DNA of 64,000 nt from Siphonodentalium dalli (taxonomy: Eukaryota > Mollusca > Scaphopoda > Gadilida > Siphonodentaliidae): contig CP136061.1 in the NCBI GenBank assembly GCA_032622095.1, positions 42,415,797-42,479,796 on the forward strand. Direction: 5' to 3'. The position numbers and the translations under genes are program-made. The notes beneath the pieces were generated by a model. It saw only the letters and a program-made list of their open reading frames with translations. It had not been told where the DNA came from and did no database searches. This document shows, in pieces, positions 3,880-59,012 of the stretch. Position 1 is the stretch's first letter, and each line of letters begins with the position of its first letter.

Positions 3880-4969
3880 AATTCACCTCACAACACCAGG
3901 GGGCTTACCCATAATTCACCTCACTATACCAGGAGGCTCCCAATGGGTTATATATTATTTTCAGGCTATCAGATTATTTATATTTTCAACAACATATTAT
4001 TACACCGGTGACTTTAAGATTACAATTTCAGCCTGTCCTGACTATCGATACGATTGAGTCATATTTTCAAAAACATAGTATACACCGGTGGCGTTAACTT
4101 TACAATTTAAGCATCTATGTGATTCTATCGGTACGATTTGAGTAAGGTACAAAAAAAAAATCTTCGCCCACTCGACCACAGAATTGGAGACTACCACTGA
4201 ATATGAAAAACAGCCACACTAGAAACACCACACATTATCGGGTTAACATAAAACCATTCAAAAATTGAAACAAACTTAAATAATAAATAAATTAAACCAT
4301 AAACTCTTACCATAATTACAGAAAATAAAAGATGGCCGTTACTACAAAAAAAACAGACATGCGCACTCAATTAAAATTACCCATAATTCAGTTCACTACA
4401 CCAGGGGCTCCCAACAGGTTATACAATATTTTCAGGCTATCAGATTATTTATATTTTCGACTTTAAGTTTACAATTTGAGCCTGTCCTCACTCTATCGAT
4501 ACGATTTATCATAAACATATTATACACCAGTGGCGTTAACTTTACAACTTCGGCATCTACGTGATTATATCGGTACGATTCAGTAAGGTACAAACAATTT
4601 CCATAAAATACCCACAATTCAGTTCAGTACATGCAGGGGCTCCCAATAGGTTATTCCCATTTATTATGGGCTCCCAATAGGTTATACAATATTTTCAGGC
4701 TATCAGATTATTTATATTTTCAACAACATATTATTACACCGGTGACTTTAAGTTTACAATTTGAGCCTGTCCTGACTCTATCGATAGGATTTATCATATT
4801 TTCATAAACGTATTATACACCGCTGACGTTAACTTTACAATTTCGGCATCTACGTGATTATATCGGTACGATTGAGTAAGGTACAAACAATCTCCAAGAA
4901 TACATTCGCCCTGTACTCCATGCGATATAAAAAAACCAAATGCTAGAAACACCACACTAGGTGGCGTAA
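3880..4969. repeat. Satellite-like tandem units of about 240-290 bp at the inner end of Z
   Basis: Three imperfect units start near 3880, 4370 and 4618. Each contains 'ggctcccaa', 'attttcaggctatcagatta', 'caccggtgac' or a near variant, and 'tcggtacgatt'. The same units occur inverted at 11043-11600, so the tandem block belongs to Z. No gene is visible. Confidence 0.65.
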
Positions 4970-11042: not shown

Positions 11043-14000
11043 TTACGCCACCTGTGGTGTTTCTAGCTTCTGTGAGTTTGATATTGTGTGGTGGACAGGG
11101 CGAATGTATTCTTGGAGATTTTGTGTACCTTACTCAATCGTACCGATAGAATCACGTAGATGCCGAAATTGTAAAGTTAACGTCACCGGTGTATAATATG
11201 TTTATGAAAATATGATAAATCGTATCGATAGAGTCAGGACAGGCTGAAATTGTAAACTTAAAGTCACCGGTGTAATAATATGTTGTTGAAAATATAAATA
11301 ATTTGATAGACTGAAAATAATATATAACCCATTGGGAGCCCCTAATGTATTCTTGAACATATTGTTTTGTACCATTACTCAATTGTACCGATAGAATCAC
11401 GTAGATGCCGAAATTGTAAAGTTAACGCCACCGGTGTATAATATGTTTATGGAAATATGATAAATCGTATCGATAGAGTCAGGATAGGCTGAAATTGTAA
11501 ACGTAAAGTCACTTGTTGTTGAAAATATAAATAATTTGATAGACTGAAAATAATGTGTAACCCATTGCGAACCCCCCCTGGTGTAGTGAAGTGAATTGTG
11601 GGTAGTTTCATTGTGAATATTCTCCGCCATCTTTATTTTCTGGAATTATCACCAAGATTTCTCCACTCTATTCTCTTAAACTACACCCGAATCGGTCAAA
11701 TTCTTTTGATAATTCTATCTAAATACACCTTAGCTACTATTCGGAGCTGCTGTCCCGGTCTAAAAAGGGATAGTTTGACCAAAACGACTATTGACCAAAA
11801 CTTTGTTTACAAATTGAGCGCACTCGATGACCGGGTTGACCGGAATGACCCGTCCACGCTGCAAATTTATTATCGAAAACAAATTCAATTTCTTCCATCT
11901 AAAACATAATTACGCGCTGGACTGGTCATTTTAGGAATATATATGTATCCCACGCACATACACCAAGTTTCAGCTTAAAATTTTGAAAAATGACAGTTTT
12001 ATTGACATAAATCGATTTTAATGGCAAATGCCATGTTAAATTTTATCATTGAAAACAATTCATTTCTTCCATCTAAAACATAATTACGTGCTGTACTCTG
12101 TAGTTTTAGGAATACATAACTATCCATCGCACAAACACCAAGTCTCAGCTTAAAATTTTGAAAATAAATTTGACATAAATCGATTTTAATGGCAAATGCC
12201 ATGTTAAATAAATTTTTGGGCCCTGCAAATATTTTCTGAGCTGTTCCATATTGGCACTAGAGTCCATATTTGACCGGTTACACCTGATAATTGTGCAACA
12301 GTATAGTCGCGTTACTTTATACATCAACATTGGTCATTATCACCCGACAATTTTATTTTGGTCTATCGTATCAACCCGTATTTTCTCCCGCATAGCCTGA
12401 CTAAGTGTCAACATTGGTCTTTATCGCTCCACTAATTTGTATCGTTTCATCGGTATGAATTCCATATCCAATTATCCACATATAACCAACCCAACCTCTA
12501 ATCCCGGTCCAATTTATTTATTTCTTTCATCGGTATAGTCACGTTACGTAATCTTGTATCGCGTGATACTTGTACTTATATGTCTATGGTATTACTATAG
12601 TATACCGTATACGTATATCAATTGCTATTCCTTTCTATATAATCCTGGTGCCATCTATAGACATAGTGATAATTTCAGACCCCCCCCAATTTTATATCAT
12701 TGCTGCTTTAGTACAGTCGCGATATATTACATGGCAACATCGCTCCACTAATTTATGTCAGTTCATCGGTACAAACCCCTTTTTCTCCGAGTCCATATAA
12801 CCAACCCAACATCTTATAGAAGTCCATAAATGACTATTATGGCACTATATAGAGATGACTAAAATTCTGACACCCCCTATTTTACAGCCTTGTTGCAATG
12901 TTCAGTAGAGTTGAGATGCATAATATGTCAACATTGGTCATTATCGCTCTATAATTTTATATCGGTTCAACCCTTAGTTCCCTGTATCGCCCACCCCTCC
13001 CTGAATTTATTTTTTCATTTGTATTATAGTCTCGTTGCGTACACATTTTATCTCTTGTAACTTTTGCTTCAATGCGTCGAGTTCCGCTGCAGGGAATACA
13101 AAACTGACAACATTTTGAAATGTTAGCAGGCTTCAAACTCATCTTATCCAAGAAAAACTCTGGTTACATAAGAAATTTGTGTATATGGTGTACGCGCATT
13201 TATGAGTTAAAAACCAAAGGTCCCAAGTCAAGGTCCAAATCCCCAACACACTGTTGTGAGGTTTAACTCCATCTACAAACAGTAATGTCCAAAGTAATTG
13301 ATCACTTAACCACAGCAAAATTATGGGTATTTTTTCATGATTTTAAATCCTGAAAAATTACCCATAATTATGCTGTGGTTAAGTGGTCAATTACTTTGGG
13401 CATTACTGTAACCAATATAAGGATTTGAGGTTTAATGATAACTCAATCCTCATACAGTAATGTTCAAAGTAATTGACCACTTAATCACAGTAGAATAATG
13501 AGTAATTTATCAGGATTTTAAATCCTGAAAAAATACCCATAATTCTGCTGTGGTTAAGTGGTCAATTACTTTGGGCATTACTGTAACCAATATAAGGATT
13601 TGAGGTTTAATGATAACTCAATCCTCATACAGTAATGTTCAAAGTAATTGACCACTTAACCAGAGCAGAATTATTTGTAATTTTTCAGGATTTTAAATCC
13701 TGAAAAATTACCAATAAGTCTGATCTGGTTAAGTGGTCAATTACTTTGGGCATTACTGTAACCAATATAAGGATGTGAGGTTTAATGAGAACTCCATCCA
13801 CATAACTAATAAATATGTGTGAAAATTAAAACAAAACAAAATAAATTCCATGATGGCGTCCAATATGGACTGCCTAATTCTGCTCCAAAACATGTATATT
13901 GAATATATGGATGTTTATTGGGGGAAACCGATTATTTCAATGATATTTTCATTAACTGGGATCCAAAACCTGACTTACGGGAGCGTGCTTCGCGCGCGAC

Positions 14001-40071: not shown

Positions 40072-40171
40072 NNNNNNNNNNNNNNNNNNNNNNNNNNNNN
40101 NNNNNNNNNNNNNNNNNNNNNNNNNNNNNNNNNNNNNNNNNNNNNNNNNNNNNNNNNNNNNNNNNNNNNNN
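40072..40171. other. Assembly gap (100 N)
   Basis: Exactly 100 N, a conventional scaffold-gap placeholder, so the real distance is unknown. A tandem repeat starts immediately to the right. Any reading frame drawn across it is meaningless. Confidence 0.98.
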
Positions 40172-54282: not shown

Positions 54283-54464
54283 TCAATCGCGGGCGATAAC
54301 TGTATATTAATGCTAGCTAGTTAAATTTGTAGATTAATCGACACTGCATAATTGAACGATGCTATTCTATGATTAAATGCTGTCACTGTACGTTAAATTT
54401 CCATCCAAAGTATGTTCTATGTGATCTTGATTCGAAGGTAAACAAACCATTTCAGCTACTTTGG

Positions 54465-54592
54465 TATTACCACGCCGTCTACTCCCTATTTATTGGTATT
54501 ACTACGCCGTCTACCCCCTATTTATTGGTATTACTACGCCGTCTACTCCCTATTTATTGGTATTACTACGCCGTCTACCCCCTATTGATTTA
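54465..54592. repeat. 32-bp minisatellite, four units
   Basis: Four copies of 'tattactacgccgtctactc' plus 'cctatttattgg', with few differences. Confidence 0.9.
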
Positions 54593-56555: not shown

Positions 56556-57021
56556 CCAGAGCGCGGGGTTAGACTACATGTCATTCAGATTATGGGTTGG
56601 CGTGTGGACTGGAGTAATTCTCATCATTATCGTGGCATTCGATTTGAGTGCACTTGTCCGCTACATCACGCGATTCACAGAAGAGAGTTTCGCAGCCCTA
56701 ATATCATTGATATTCATCAAAGAAGCCATTTCTAAACTTATCTCAGTGACACAAAAATATCCAATACATATTCATCCACCCGATGAAATCAGTTTAAACT
56801 GTACATGTCAGCCTATATCAGATAGTGTATCTTATCAGTGGTTTGATAACATGACATTGCAGACTTGTGAACAGAATAATGGTACCCTGGTTGGAGTTGG
56901 GTGCGTTCACTTCAGGTTTCATCCAGACGTGTTTTTCTTGTCGTGTATTTTATTTCTTGGAACCTTTGCTGTCTCCTTTGCTCTAAAGAACTTCAAAACA
57001 AGCAGATTTCTTCCTAACATG
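56556..57021 (+). CDS. SLC4A-like: SLC4 exon 5 of those seen (TM4-TM6 with extracellular loop)
   Basis: 466 bp, phase 2 to 0, between 'attttccag' and 'gtaaga'. It reads 'FRLWVGVWTGVILIIIVAFD', 'YITRFTEESFAALISLIFIK', then an extracellular loop with four Cys ('CTC', 'TCEQ', 'GCVHF') and three N-glycosylation sequons (NCT, NMT, NGT), then 'FLSCILFLGTFAVSFALKNF' and 'KTSRFLPNM'. The four-Cys, glycosylated loop is typical of sodium-coupled SLC4 proteins, but here it is shorter than I recall for vertebrate members. Parts of the exon recall NBCe1/NBCe2 and others NBCn/NDCBE, so I do not choose a paralogue. The last 50 bases and donor are repeated downstream. Confidence 0.96.
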
Positions 57022-57203
57022 GTAAGAATAATTCAATTCTGTTTTTTATGTGTAACCCTTATAAGTATCTCCTTTGCTCTAAAGAACTTCAAAACAAGCA
57101 GATTTCTTCCTAACATGGTAAGAATAATTTCTGTTTTTTATGTGTATATACGTATCTCTTTCGCTCTAAAGAACTTCAAAACAATCAGATTTCTTCCTAA
57201 CAT
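57022..57203 (+). repeat. Two tandem copies of the exon 3' end and splice donor
   Basis: The 50 exon bases 56972-57021 and the start of the intron recur at 57068-57117 (period 96) and 57155-57203 (period 87). The second copy is identical in its exon part and keeps the donor 'atg|gtaagaataatt' at 57117/57118. The reading frame stays open through it, so splicing there would insert 32 residues ending again in 'SFALKNFKTSRFLPNM'. The third copy has three or so changes and its donor is displaced by a MITE; the frame ends at a TAA at 57208. Confidence 0.93.
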
Positions 57204-57204
57204 A

Positions 57205-57355
57205 CAGTAATGCCCTAATTAATTGACTCCATAACCACAGCAGAATTATGGGCAACTTTTCAGGATTTAGTCGGAAATATGGCTTGTTGCCATTCATCGG
57301 AAAGTTCTCCATAATTCTGCTGTGGTTATGGAGTCGATTAATTAGGGCATTACTG
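57205..57355. mobile_element. TA-MITE inserted at the third exon-end copy
   Basis: Starts CAGTAATGCCCTAATTAATT and ends with the inverse, with a TA on each side (57203-57204 and 57356-57357). Removing it leaves 'cctaacatagtaag', which is the duplicated exon end and donor with one G-to-A change. TA target, inverted ends and small size fit a Tc1/mariner-type non-autonomous element. Confidence 0.9.
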
Positions 57356-57554
57356 TAGTAAGTACAATTAATTTCTTTACTAAATGGATTCTCCCATCAA
57401 TATATATTGGAATGGTCTATTATTCATCTGGAGGGATGTTCAAGCAATATAAGCAGATGACAGACAGTAAAACAGATAATACGAGTGCCGAATGATTCCT
57501 ATTCATTGATGGGAAATGGTCAGATAATAAGTTCAACAATGTTAACAAGGGTTA

Positions 57555-57697: not shown

Positions 57698-58616
57698 TAC
57701 ACCTTACTCTTATTTAAATTCACACATTATTATTTTTCACTCAGTTTTCACGCACTTTGAATTCACGCATGTGCGAATTCAAAACTGACATCAATTTTGC
57801 CATATAATTTATCAAAATCATGTATCCCATGGCATGCATTTACCATTCTAACCCAAAGGTGGATTAAATTACCTCCATGATATATATATATACAACACAA
57901 ACAGAGGATAAAATGTAACTGCTAATTATGTAGTTGTGAAGATAAGTAATTCGAGATCTACCACACTTGCGCTGGTCCAATAATAATTATTATATTTAAC
58001 CCTTTACCCAACAAACCGGCCAAAACCGGCCAAATAAAGCTTCAACAGCCTAAAATATCTTCGGTCTGTCTCAATAGAACCATACAAATATGGATATCAT
58101 TGGAATCGGCTCCTTGACCACATTGTGATAGTTACAGTTATGCCCTGTGCCAATGCATTCTCTTATATATGCGAGTCGACCATAGGTCGCCTCGCATATA
58201 TAAGAGAATGCATTGGCCTAAAAAAAATCTTTTTTTACCATTTTTTCTTACATTCTTTAACAATTTTATAATTTTTAATGTGCTAAGCCAATGCATTCTC
58301 TTATATATGCGAGGCGACCTATGGTCGACTCGCATATATAAGAGAATGCATTGGCACAGGGCCCTTCTGTTGGGTAAAGGGTTAAATAGTTATGGGCATC
58401 ACTGACAAGAATTTGAACTAATTTAATTCACATCAATGGAGATTGATATAATGTTGCTGACTTCAAAGTGTCACTTTGTAGTTTACATGTACCTTTAATT
58501 TTCCCGCTTATCTTACAATTTTTTTCGCTCAGTTTTAAATTCACGCATCGTCGGGTTCGTGAAAAATAGTTCTGTGTAAATTTAAATACAAATCAGGTAT
58601 ATATGTTTTATTCCAG
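57698..58616 (+). other. SLC4 intron, middle part
   Basis: Contains a short AT microsatellite near 57881-57890 and a PB-A MITE at 58000-58381. No exon seen between the exon-end copies on the left and the acceptor copies on the right. Confidence 0.7.
58000..58381 (-). mobile_element. PB-A MITE, copy 3 (inverted)
   Basis: 382 bp between TTAA 57996-57999 and 58382-58385, in the opposite orientation to the copies at 16159 and 54799. Both core palindromes are intact. Confidence 0.9.
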
Positions 58617-58827
58617 GCGCGTGTTTTGATCAGTGATTTTGCGGTATTTTTGCGATCATCCTTATGGTTGTGTATATATTTTTTATTCTAGGAGCGTGAT
58701 TTTGCAGTATTTTTGCGATCATTCTTATGGTTGTGTATATATTTTATTCCAGGCGCGTGTTTTGATCAGTGATTTTGCGGTATTTTTGCGATTATTCTTA
58801 TGGTTGTGTATATATTTTTTATTCTAG
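58617..58827 (+). repeat. Three upstream copies of the exon 5' part with splice acceptors
   Basis: 'ttccag|gcgcgtgttttgatcag' at 58616/58617, 'attctag|gagcgtgattttg' at 58691/58692 and 'attccag|gcgcgtgttttgatc' at 58752/58753 precede the true acceptor at 58827/58828. Each copy has about 55 exon bases followed by 'ttgtgtatatattt'-like intron. Copies 1-3 read 'gcggtatttttgcgatc' where the real exon has 'gcggtattggttgcgatc', one base shorter. Their frame therefore shifts, and copies 1 and 3 reach the TAG of the next acceptor. They look like decoy acceptors. Confidence 0.92.
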
Positions 58828-58941
58828 GCGCGTGTTTTGATCAGTGACTTTGCGGTATTGGTTGCGATCATTCTTATGGTTGGACTTGATGCGCTTCTTG
58901 GAATTCCGACTCCTAAACTTCTTGTGCCTGTAGATTTTGCT
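58828..58941 (+). CDS. SLC4A-like: SLC4 exon 6 of those seen (TM7)
   Basis: 114 bp, 38 codons, phase 0 at both ends, between 'attctag' and 'gtaagt'. It reads 'ARVLISDFAVLVAIILMVGL' and 'DALLGIPTPKLLVPVDFA'. The 'ISDFA' and 'D.L.G.PTPKL.VP' signatures are constant in sodium-coupled SLC4 proteins. This is the only one of the four tandem copies that is full length and in frame with the next exon. Confidence 0.96.
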
Positions 58942-59012
58942 GTAAGTAGTTGATTTTTATTATCCCCCCCCCAAAAGCAAAGAAAAATTAAACTTATTTG
59001 ATTGATGTTTAA

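Follow-up and report, generated by a model that had tools for sequence, protein, structure and literature searches.

Tandem repeats that span an exon–intron border are a known kind of variation, and the known case is the human CBS gene, in which a 31-bp variable-number tandem repeat (VNTR), written c.1444_1467+7(16_21), carries 24 exonic and 7 intronic bases in each unit and differs in copy number among chromosomes, as the part of the source that describes the variant has it (PMC2630376). A review that treats the same repeat locates it to non-coding sequence, at the border of exon 13, and links higher copy number to lower activity (PMC5188458); we read this as saying that CBS normally splices from the upstream donor of the repeat. 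A second human CBS variant, c.844_845ins68, duplicates an intron–exon border, and here the relevant passage states that splicing strongly prefers the more distal site and that the upstream copy is taken out (PMC2630376), the sites being called donors in that passage although the junction is that of intron 7 and exon 8. Tandem duplication that includes splice signals is also the basis of an intron gain described for the potato RdRp gene, in the portion of the account that concerns us (PMC4974935).

The locus presented here is an SLC4 gene in the window, by which we mean the whole stretch of 64,000 nucleotides that was analysed; it is part of contig C1 of a 2.2-Gb genome assembled in nine contigs, and a second copy of the gene is found on contig C4. 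Like the CBS repeat as described, the repeat unit at the end of exon e7 holds the exon end together with its donor,. CBS copy number varies among chromosomes (PMC2630376); here the two assembled copies, which are most likely alleles, carry three and six units. Unlike the CBS repeat, for which the variant description gives 31-bp units in 16–21 copies, the units here are 93–96 nt long with two or five intact donors, and they are open in frame and include a MITE in the last unit, features that do not belong to the CBS repeat as that source portrays it. An effect on activity is reported for CBS in the review passage. The c.844_845ins68 variant resembles an acceptor-side array on the same intron (58596-58882) in being a duplicated intron–exon border, but it is a single duplication in the account given of it, whereas four acceptor copies are present here in both gene copies. 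In contrast to the potato case, so far as its description extends, the borders of an existing intron have been multiplied and we propose no new intron. Our literature search on border-spanning repeats and SLC4 genes turned up no SLC4 case, no donor- and acceptor-side arrays on one intron, no open units in a transporter and no assembly in which two equal donors in one gene copy stand against five in another, which is not proof of absence.

The explanation that we favour, at a probability of about 0.62, is that the array is a border-spanning VNTR in an SLC4 gene, that the two gene copies are most likely alleles, and that splicing mainly uses the first donor, with later donors used at a low level and tolerated. 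A minisatellite across the e7 border, each unit of 93-96 nt joining the final 50 exonic nt to the donor and ~45 nt of intron, would have changed in unit number through unequal exchange or slippage, so that one allele has two intact donors and the other five, all identical. In both copies a MITE would have interrupted the donor of the terminal unit, harmlessly, we propose, as donors are still provided by the units upstream. The first donor (57021) would serve most transcripts, while the downstream donors would, at a low level, add 32 residues (C1) or 32, 64, 95 or 126 residues (C4) to the loop between TM6 and TM7. To all appearance the array is an ordinary, if informative, side product of a genome rich in repeats. 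If C1 and C4 carry alleles, they offer a set of identical donors, found in nature in almost the same context and differing only in position and number, on which the choice of the spliceosome between equal sites could be tested cleanly in vivo.

The e7 donor array on C1 and C4

The earlier note on this DNA had assigned the gene to the SLC4 family, and both profile and structure matches bear this out. The e7 stretch at 56557-57021 matches the Pfam HCO3_cotransp membrane domain (PF00955) with an E value of 1.8e-43, five of the seven stretches tested match PF00955 above the cut-off (the other two gave no match), and the closest solved chain is an electroneutral sodium bicarbonate exchanger. Exon e7 (56556..57021, plus strand, 466 nt) encodes a stretch of this membrane domain and ends at the first donor, ATG/GTAAGA, after 57021; the next exon, e8, occupies 58828..58941 (plus strand; PF00955, E 1.2e-7 for 58828-58953), its first base falling at 58828 as the note had placed it. 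In TM numbering, we take e7 to reach the end of TM6 and e8 to correspond to TM7. When the full e7 exon was used as a query, it was found at two places only, in the window on C1 and on C4 (three of three candidates scored). A further stretch of 110 nt at C4:185252267-185252376 has 74% identity to the e7 exon and perhaps belongs to a related gene.

A tandem array at 56972-57203, with a period of 96, 2.5 copies and 91% matches, is reported by TRF, and a direct-repeat finder gives copies of the exon's last 50 bases and the start of the intron at spacings of 96 and 87. Unit 1 (56972..57033, plus strand) takes in 50 nt of exon end and 12 nt of adjoining intron; unit 2 (57068..57129, plus strand) lies at a spacing of 96 and is identical to it at 62/62 nt; and a third copy (57155-57216) follows at a spacing of 87 from the second, with 77% identity over 62 nt. 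The claim that exon end and donor are both triplicated therefore stands for the exon end, which is present in three copies, but not for the donor, since that of the third copy is split by a MITE. Unit 3 proper (57155..57203, plus strand) is truncated at this point, ending at CCTAACATA, the insertion point of the MITE, and has no intact donor. The MITE itself (57203..57357) is palindromic, with 57-nt arms that are 95% complementary and TA flanks judged from the sequence, and it is repeated in the genome at 38 further places with 95-99% identity over ~100 nt, among 40 scored of 2621 candidates. A GTAAGT adjoining it (57358..57363, plus strand; the last base before it is 57357) was presumably the donor of unit 3 before the MITE displaced it; its U1 pairing energy is -7.0, compared with an equal -8.0 kcal/mol for all intact e7 donors, and its use would lead to a stop in the message. 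The dead unit 3, at its spacing of 87, is in frame, and it carries a change from Ser to Ile (AGC to ATC) at a conserved position, the Ser belonging to KTSR or KTSP in each of the three solved relatives with displayed alignments.

Donors of the form ATG/GTAAG directly follow both 57021 and 57117, at an offset of 96 nt, and the insert between them is free of stops in the frame of the exon, adding 32 residues, VRIIQFCFLCVTLISISFALKNFKTSRFLPNM; the earlier note was right on the identity of the two donors, on their offset and on this reading frame, and likewise in calling the added stretch hydrophobic. The 19-residue mean hydropathy of the insert is 2.06 in C1 and 1.63 and 2.15 in two C4 types, compared with 2.39 for TM6, which puts the insert roughly on a par with a weak membrane segment in hydrophobicity. 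It probably resembles such a segment because T-rich intron starts, read in this frame, encode mainly hydrophobic residues.

That the array might be unique to the window was ruled out by the finding of the exon and a six-unit array on C4, with spacings of 96, 96, 93, 93 and 94. This array has five identical intact donors at offsets 0, 96, 192, 285 and 378, all in frame and stop-free, and its last, dead unit is out of frame. The spacer sequences between array units differ between C1 and C4, and the 50 exon-derived bases are the same in units 1-2 of C1 and units 1-4 of C4, with later units differing there as well; read off the alignment, three of the four codon differences in unit 5 of C4 are silent, as are two of three in the last units.

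Open frames and the other border arrays of the gene

The note had left it open whether a transcript from the second donor would be a true isoform or a tolerated error. In-frame isoforms are possible, and the evidence leans to tolerated error. Functional isoforms would imply that the extra donors are used meaningfully, that selection keeps the inserts in frame and that a hydrophobic segment is added between TM6 and TM7, and we regard this as unlikely. For it, and against the explanation we favour, stands the observation that all extra intact donors are open and in frame (1/1 in C1 and 4/4 in C4), at a chance of ~14% per unit. That figure of ~0.14 is post hoc and is the product of 1/3 for length and 0.43 for openness, since 43% of random 45-nt intronic stretches are stop-free in any given frame. 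We rejected an open frame alone as proof of coding, given that one unit has this ~14% chance, and the open donors are not independent events, because the units copy each other. At seven other donors of the gene we found 0 open units, which also tells against the favoured explanation, but this is a small comparison in which the frame of one exon is uncertain, and random intronic windows were preferred to it as the null.

Other features of the units can be read in favour of isoforms, among them the predominance of silent codon differences in unit 5 of C4 and in the last units and the hydropathy of the inserts beside that of TM6. An alignment of the 93-nt and 96-nt units is moreover possible in which 4 bases are lost and 1 is gained; either step by itself would break the frame, and the two together may have kept it. 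As a hint at frame keeping this is weak and post hoc, and it is one of two possible alignments, the alternative printed alignment having one 3-base gap plus substitutions. Against a functional role, the tail units carry the change of the conserved Ser to Ile, and a single extra transmembrane segment would be expected to flip the rest of the transporter.

The remaining evidence against isoforms comes from two further arrays at borders of the same gene. The acceptor-side array, in the same intron as the e7 donor array (58596..58882, plus strand; TRF), consists of four copies of the acceptor and the start of e8, with first exon bases at 58617, 58692, 58753 and 58828 (spacings 75, 61 and 75) and the same layout in the C1 and C4 copies. 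In both copies each of the three upstream acceptors runs into a stop, including the one whose length keeps the frame, leaving only the last (58828) with an open frame. On C4, the donor of e1, the first recognised SLC4 exon, also lies in a tandem array (C4:33363810-33364070, reverse strand), with donors at 0, 69 and 144 nt, and its two extra donors are in frame by length and both stopped. As all five extra splice sites of these two arrays are stopped, the openness at e7 may be luck.

Three of the 26 junctions of the C4 gene (the e1 and e7 donors and the e8 acceptor) fall in tandem arrays, compared with a mean of 1.9 obtained by shifting, and arrays of period at least 20 cover 7.6% of the gene. 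An enrichment of arrays at its borders was rejected, 31% of 5000 shifts reaching 3 (P 0.31); the ends of e1-e3 and e11 are approximate by a few bases in this test, and an array of ~20-nt period that starts in the intron at the e3 donor, holding no exon, was left out of the count. Tandem arrays appear to reach the exon borders of this gene at about the chance rate, and they do so in a transporter with constrained exons. Elsewhere in the window, related 81-82 bp arrays lie in opposite orientation at 4714-4873 (plus strand) and 11136-11512 (minus strand), and some of their units carry an acceptor-like TTTACAATTTCAG.

Alleles or duplicates

The similarity between C1 and C4 spans window coordinates 40172 to 103917. 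On C1 it begins at the base directly after a run of exactly 100 N (40072..40171), and at its far end it enters an element of ~17.7 kb with terminal inverted repeats (TIR), whose frames look, by eye, like those of a Polinton. Polinton-type elements leave 6-bp target repeats, and the flanks of this one, TTGATG and ACTGCC, do not match as such. Counting its own position, a 1501-nt piece of the element has seven top-scoring matches, suggesting that this Polinton-like family was recently active. The sequence adjoining the element looks by eye like a tRNA-Glu gene. Past the element, 4.6 kb of C1 had no match in the 7.6 kb of C4 that follow the break, and C1 pieces taken 50, 200 and 600 kb further along, placed without allowing for the element, had none in the C4 stretches compared. 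Genome searches with the 50- and 200-kb pieces gave only C1 repeats among the candidates scored (1 of 1196 and 8 of 30), which does not establish that the pieces are absent from C4. Contiguous unique flanks were not seen on both copies, C1 being bounded by the 100 N and by a TIR element with mismatched flanks, and bounds of this kind are still compatible with a real duplication.

The exons of the two copies differ at only one of 1746 bases in nine exons, a silent change, with 0 differences in the 82 bases of e11, which was compared separately; outside the exons, 0.89% of bases differ in 14 aligned blocks of more than 900 bases. At that rate 15.6 exon differences would be expected and one was seen (P ~3e-6 by a rough Poisson estimate, the blocks being variable). 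Both copies therefore look constrained, and normal splicing presumably works in both despite the array. Our reading is that C1 carries the second allele, probably misplaced there by a join through the repeated element, in preference to a truncated duplicate, because a copy of that kind would not stay so conserved. The lack of a match beyond the element in the C4 sequence compared counts against this reading, and C1 and C4 might instead be true duplicates.

A dead, 5'-truncated segmental duplicate on C1, in which the repeat would be without consequence, is on these data rather improbable. A human NBCe1 sequence used as a probe located thirteen exons on C4 and ten on C1, and the three N-terminal ones of the C4 copy had no counterpart that it could find on C1 to the left of the N gap. 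This absence would fit a truncated duplicate, as would the ending of the C1 similarity at the gap and at the TIR element, with no match to the compared C4 sequence beyond. The truncation coincides with the 100-N gap, however, the array is present in the C4 gene too, and there with more units, and the single exon difference, set against 0.89% outside, is too few for a copy freed from selection.

If the copies are two alleles in one animal, with two and five identical in-frame competing donors, repeat number could in principle set a ladder of protein lengths in which zero to four hydrophobic segments are added between TM6 and TM7, even numbers keeping the topology, and the splice-site VNTR would make the membrane protein polymorphic in length; we hold this to be a long shot.

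Choice among identical donors

All e7 donors pair equally with U1, so position must decide among them. Between identical donors the intron-proximal one is often favoured, which counts against the first donor being the main one. The CBS precedent, to the extent that its sources describe it, would suggest the opposite, with the first donor normal and extra units costing some activity. Should the most intron-proximal intact donor be the main one, the normal product would carry the inserts, a reading for which the identity of the donors in sequence and in pairing energy speaks, together with the tendency of proximal sites to win when both are bound. We consider it very improbable: the exons are strongly conserved, yet under this reading the two copies would have main products 94 residues apart in length, and in CBS the upstream donor of a longer array seems, on the passages cited above, to be the normal one. 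We retain the first donor as the probable main site, with the later ones used at a low level.

An assembly artefact is scarcely credible: although the C1 region looks hard to assemble (the gap, the element that lacks matching target repeats, and local repeats), the worry is lessened because the array was assembled twice, with differing copy number and different spacer sequences.

A palindromic element of ~400 nt lies at 57996-58387 and elsewhere, with matches of at least 360 nt at eight places in 144 kb of C1 and 11 in 130 kb of C4; the copy at 57996-58387 is missing from the corresponding place on C4. A 32-bp VNTR (54461-54590) near the e7 array also varies between the two gene copies, with 4.1 units in the window and 35.1 on C4.
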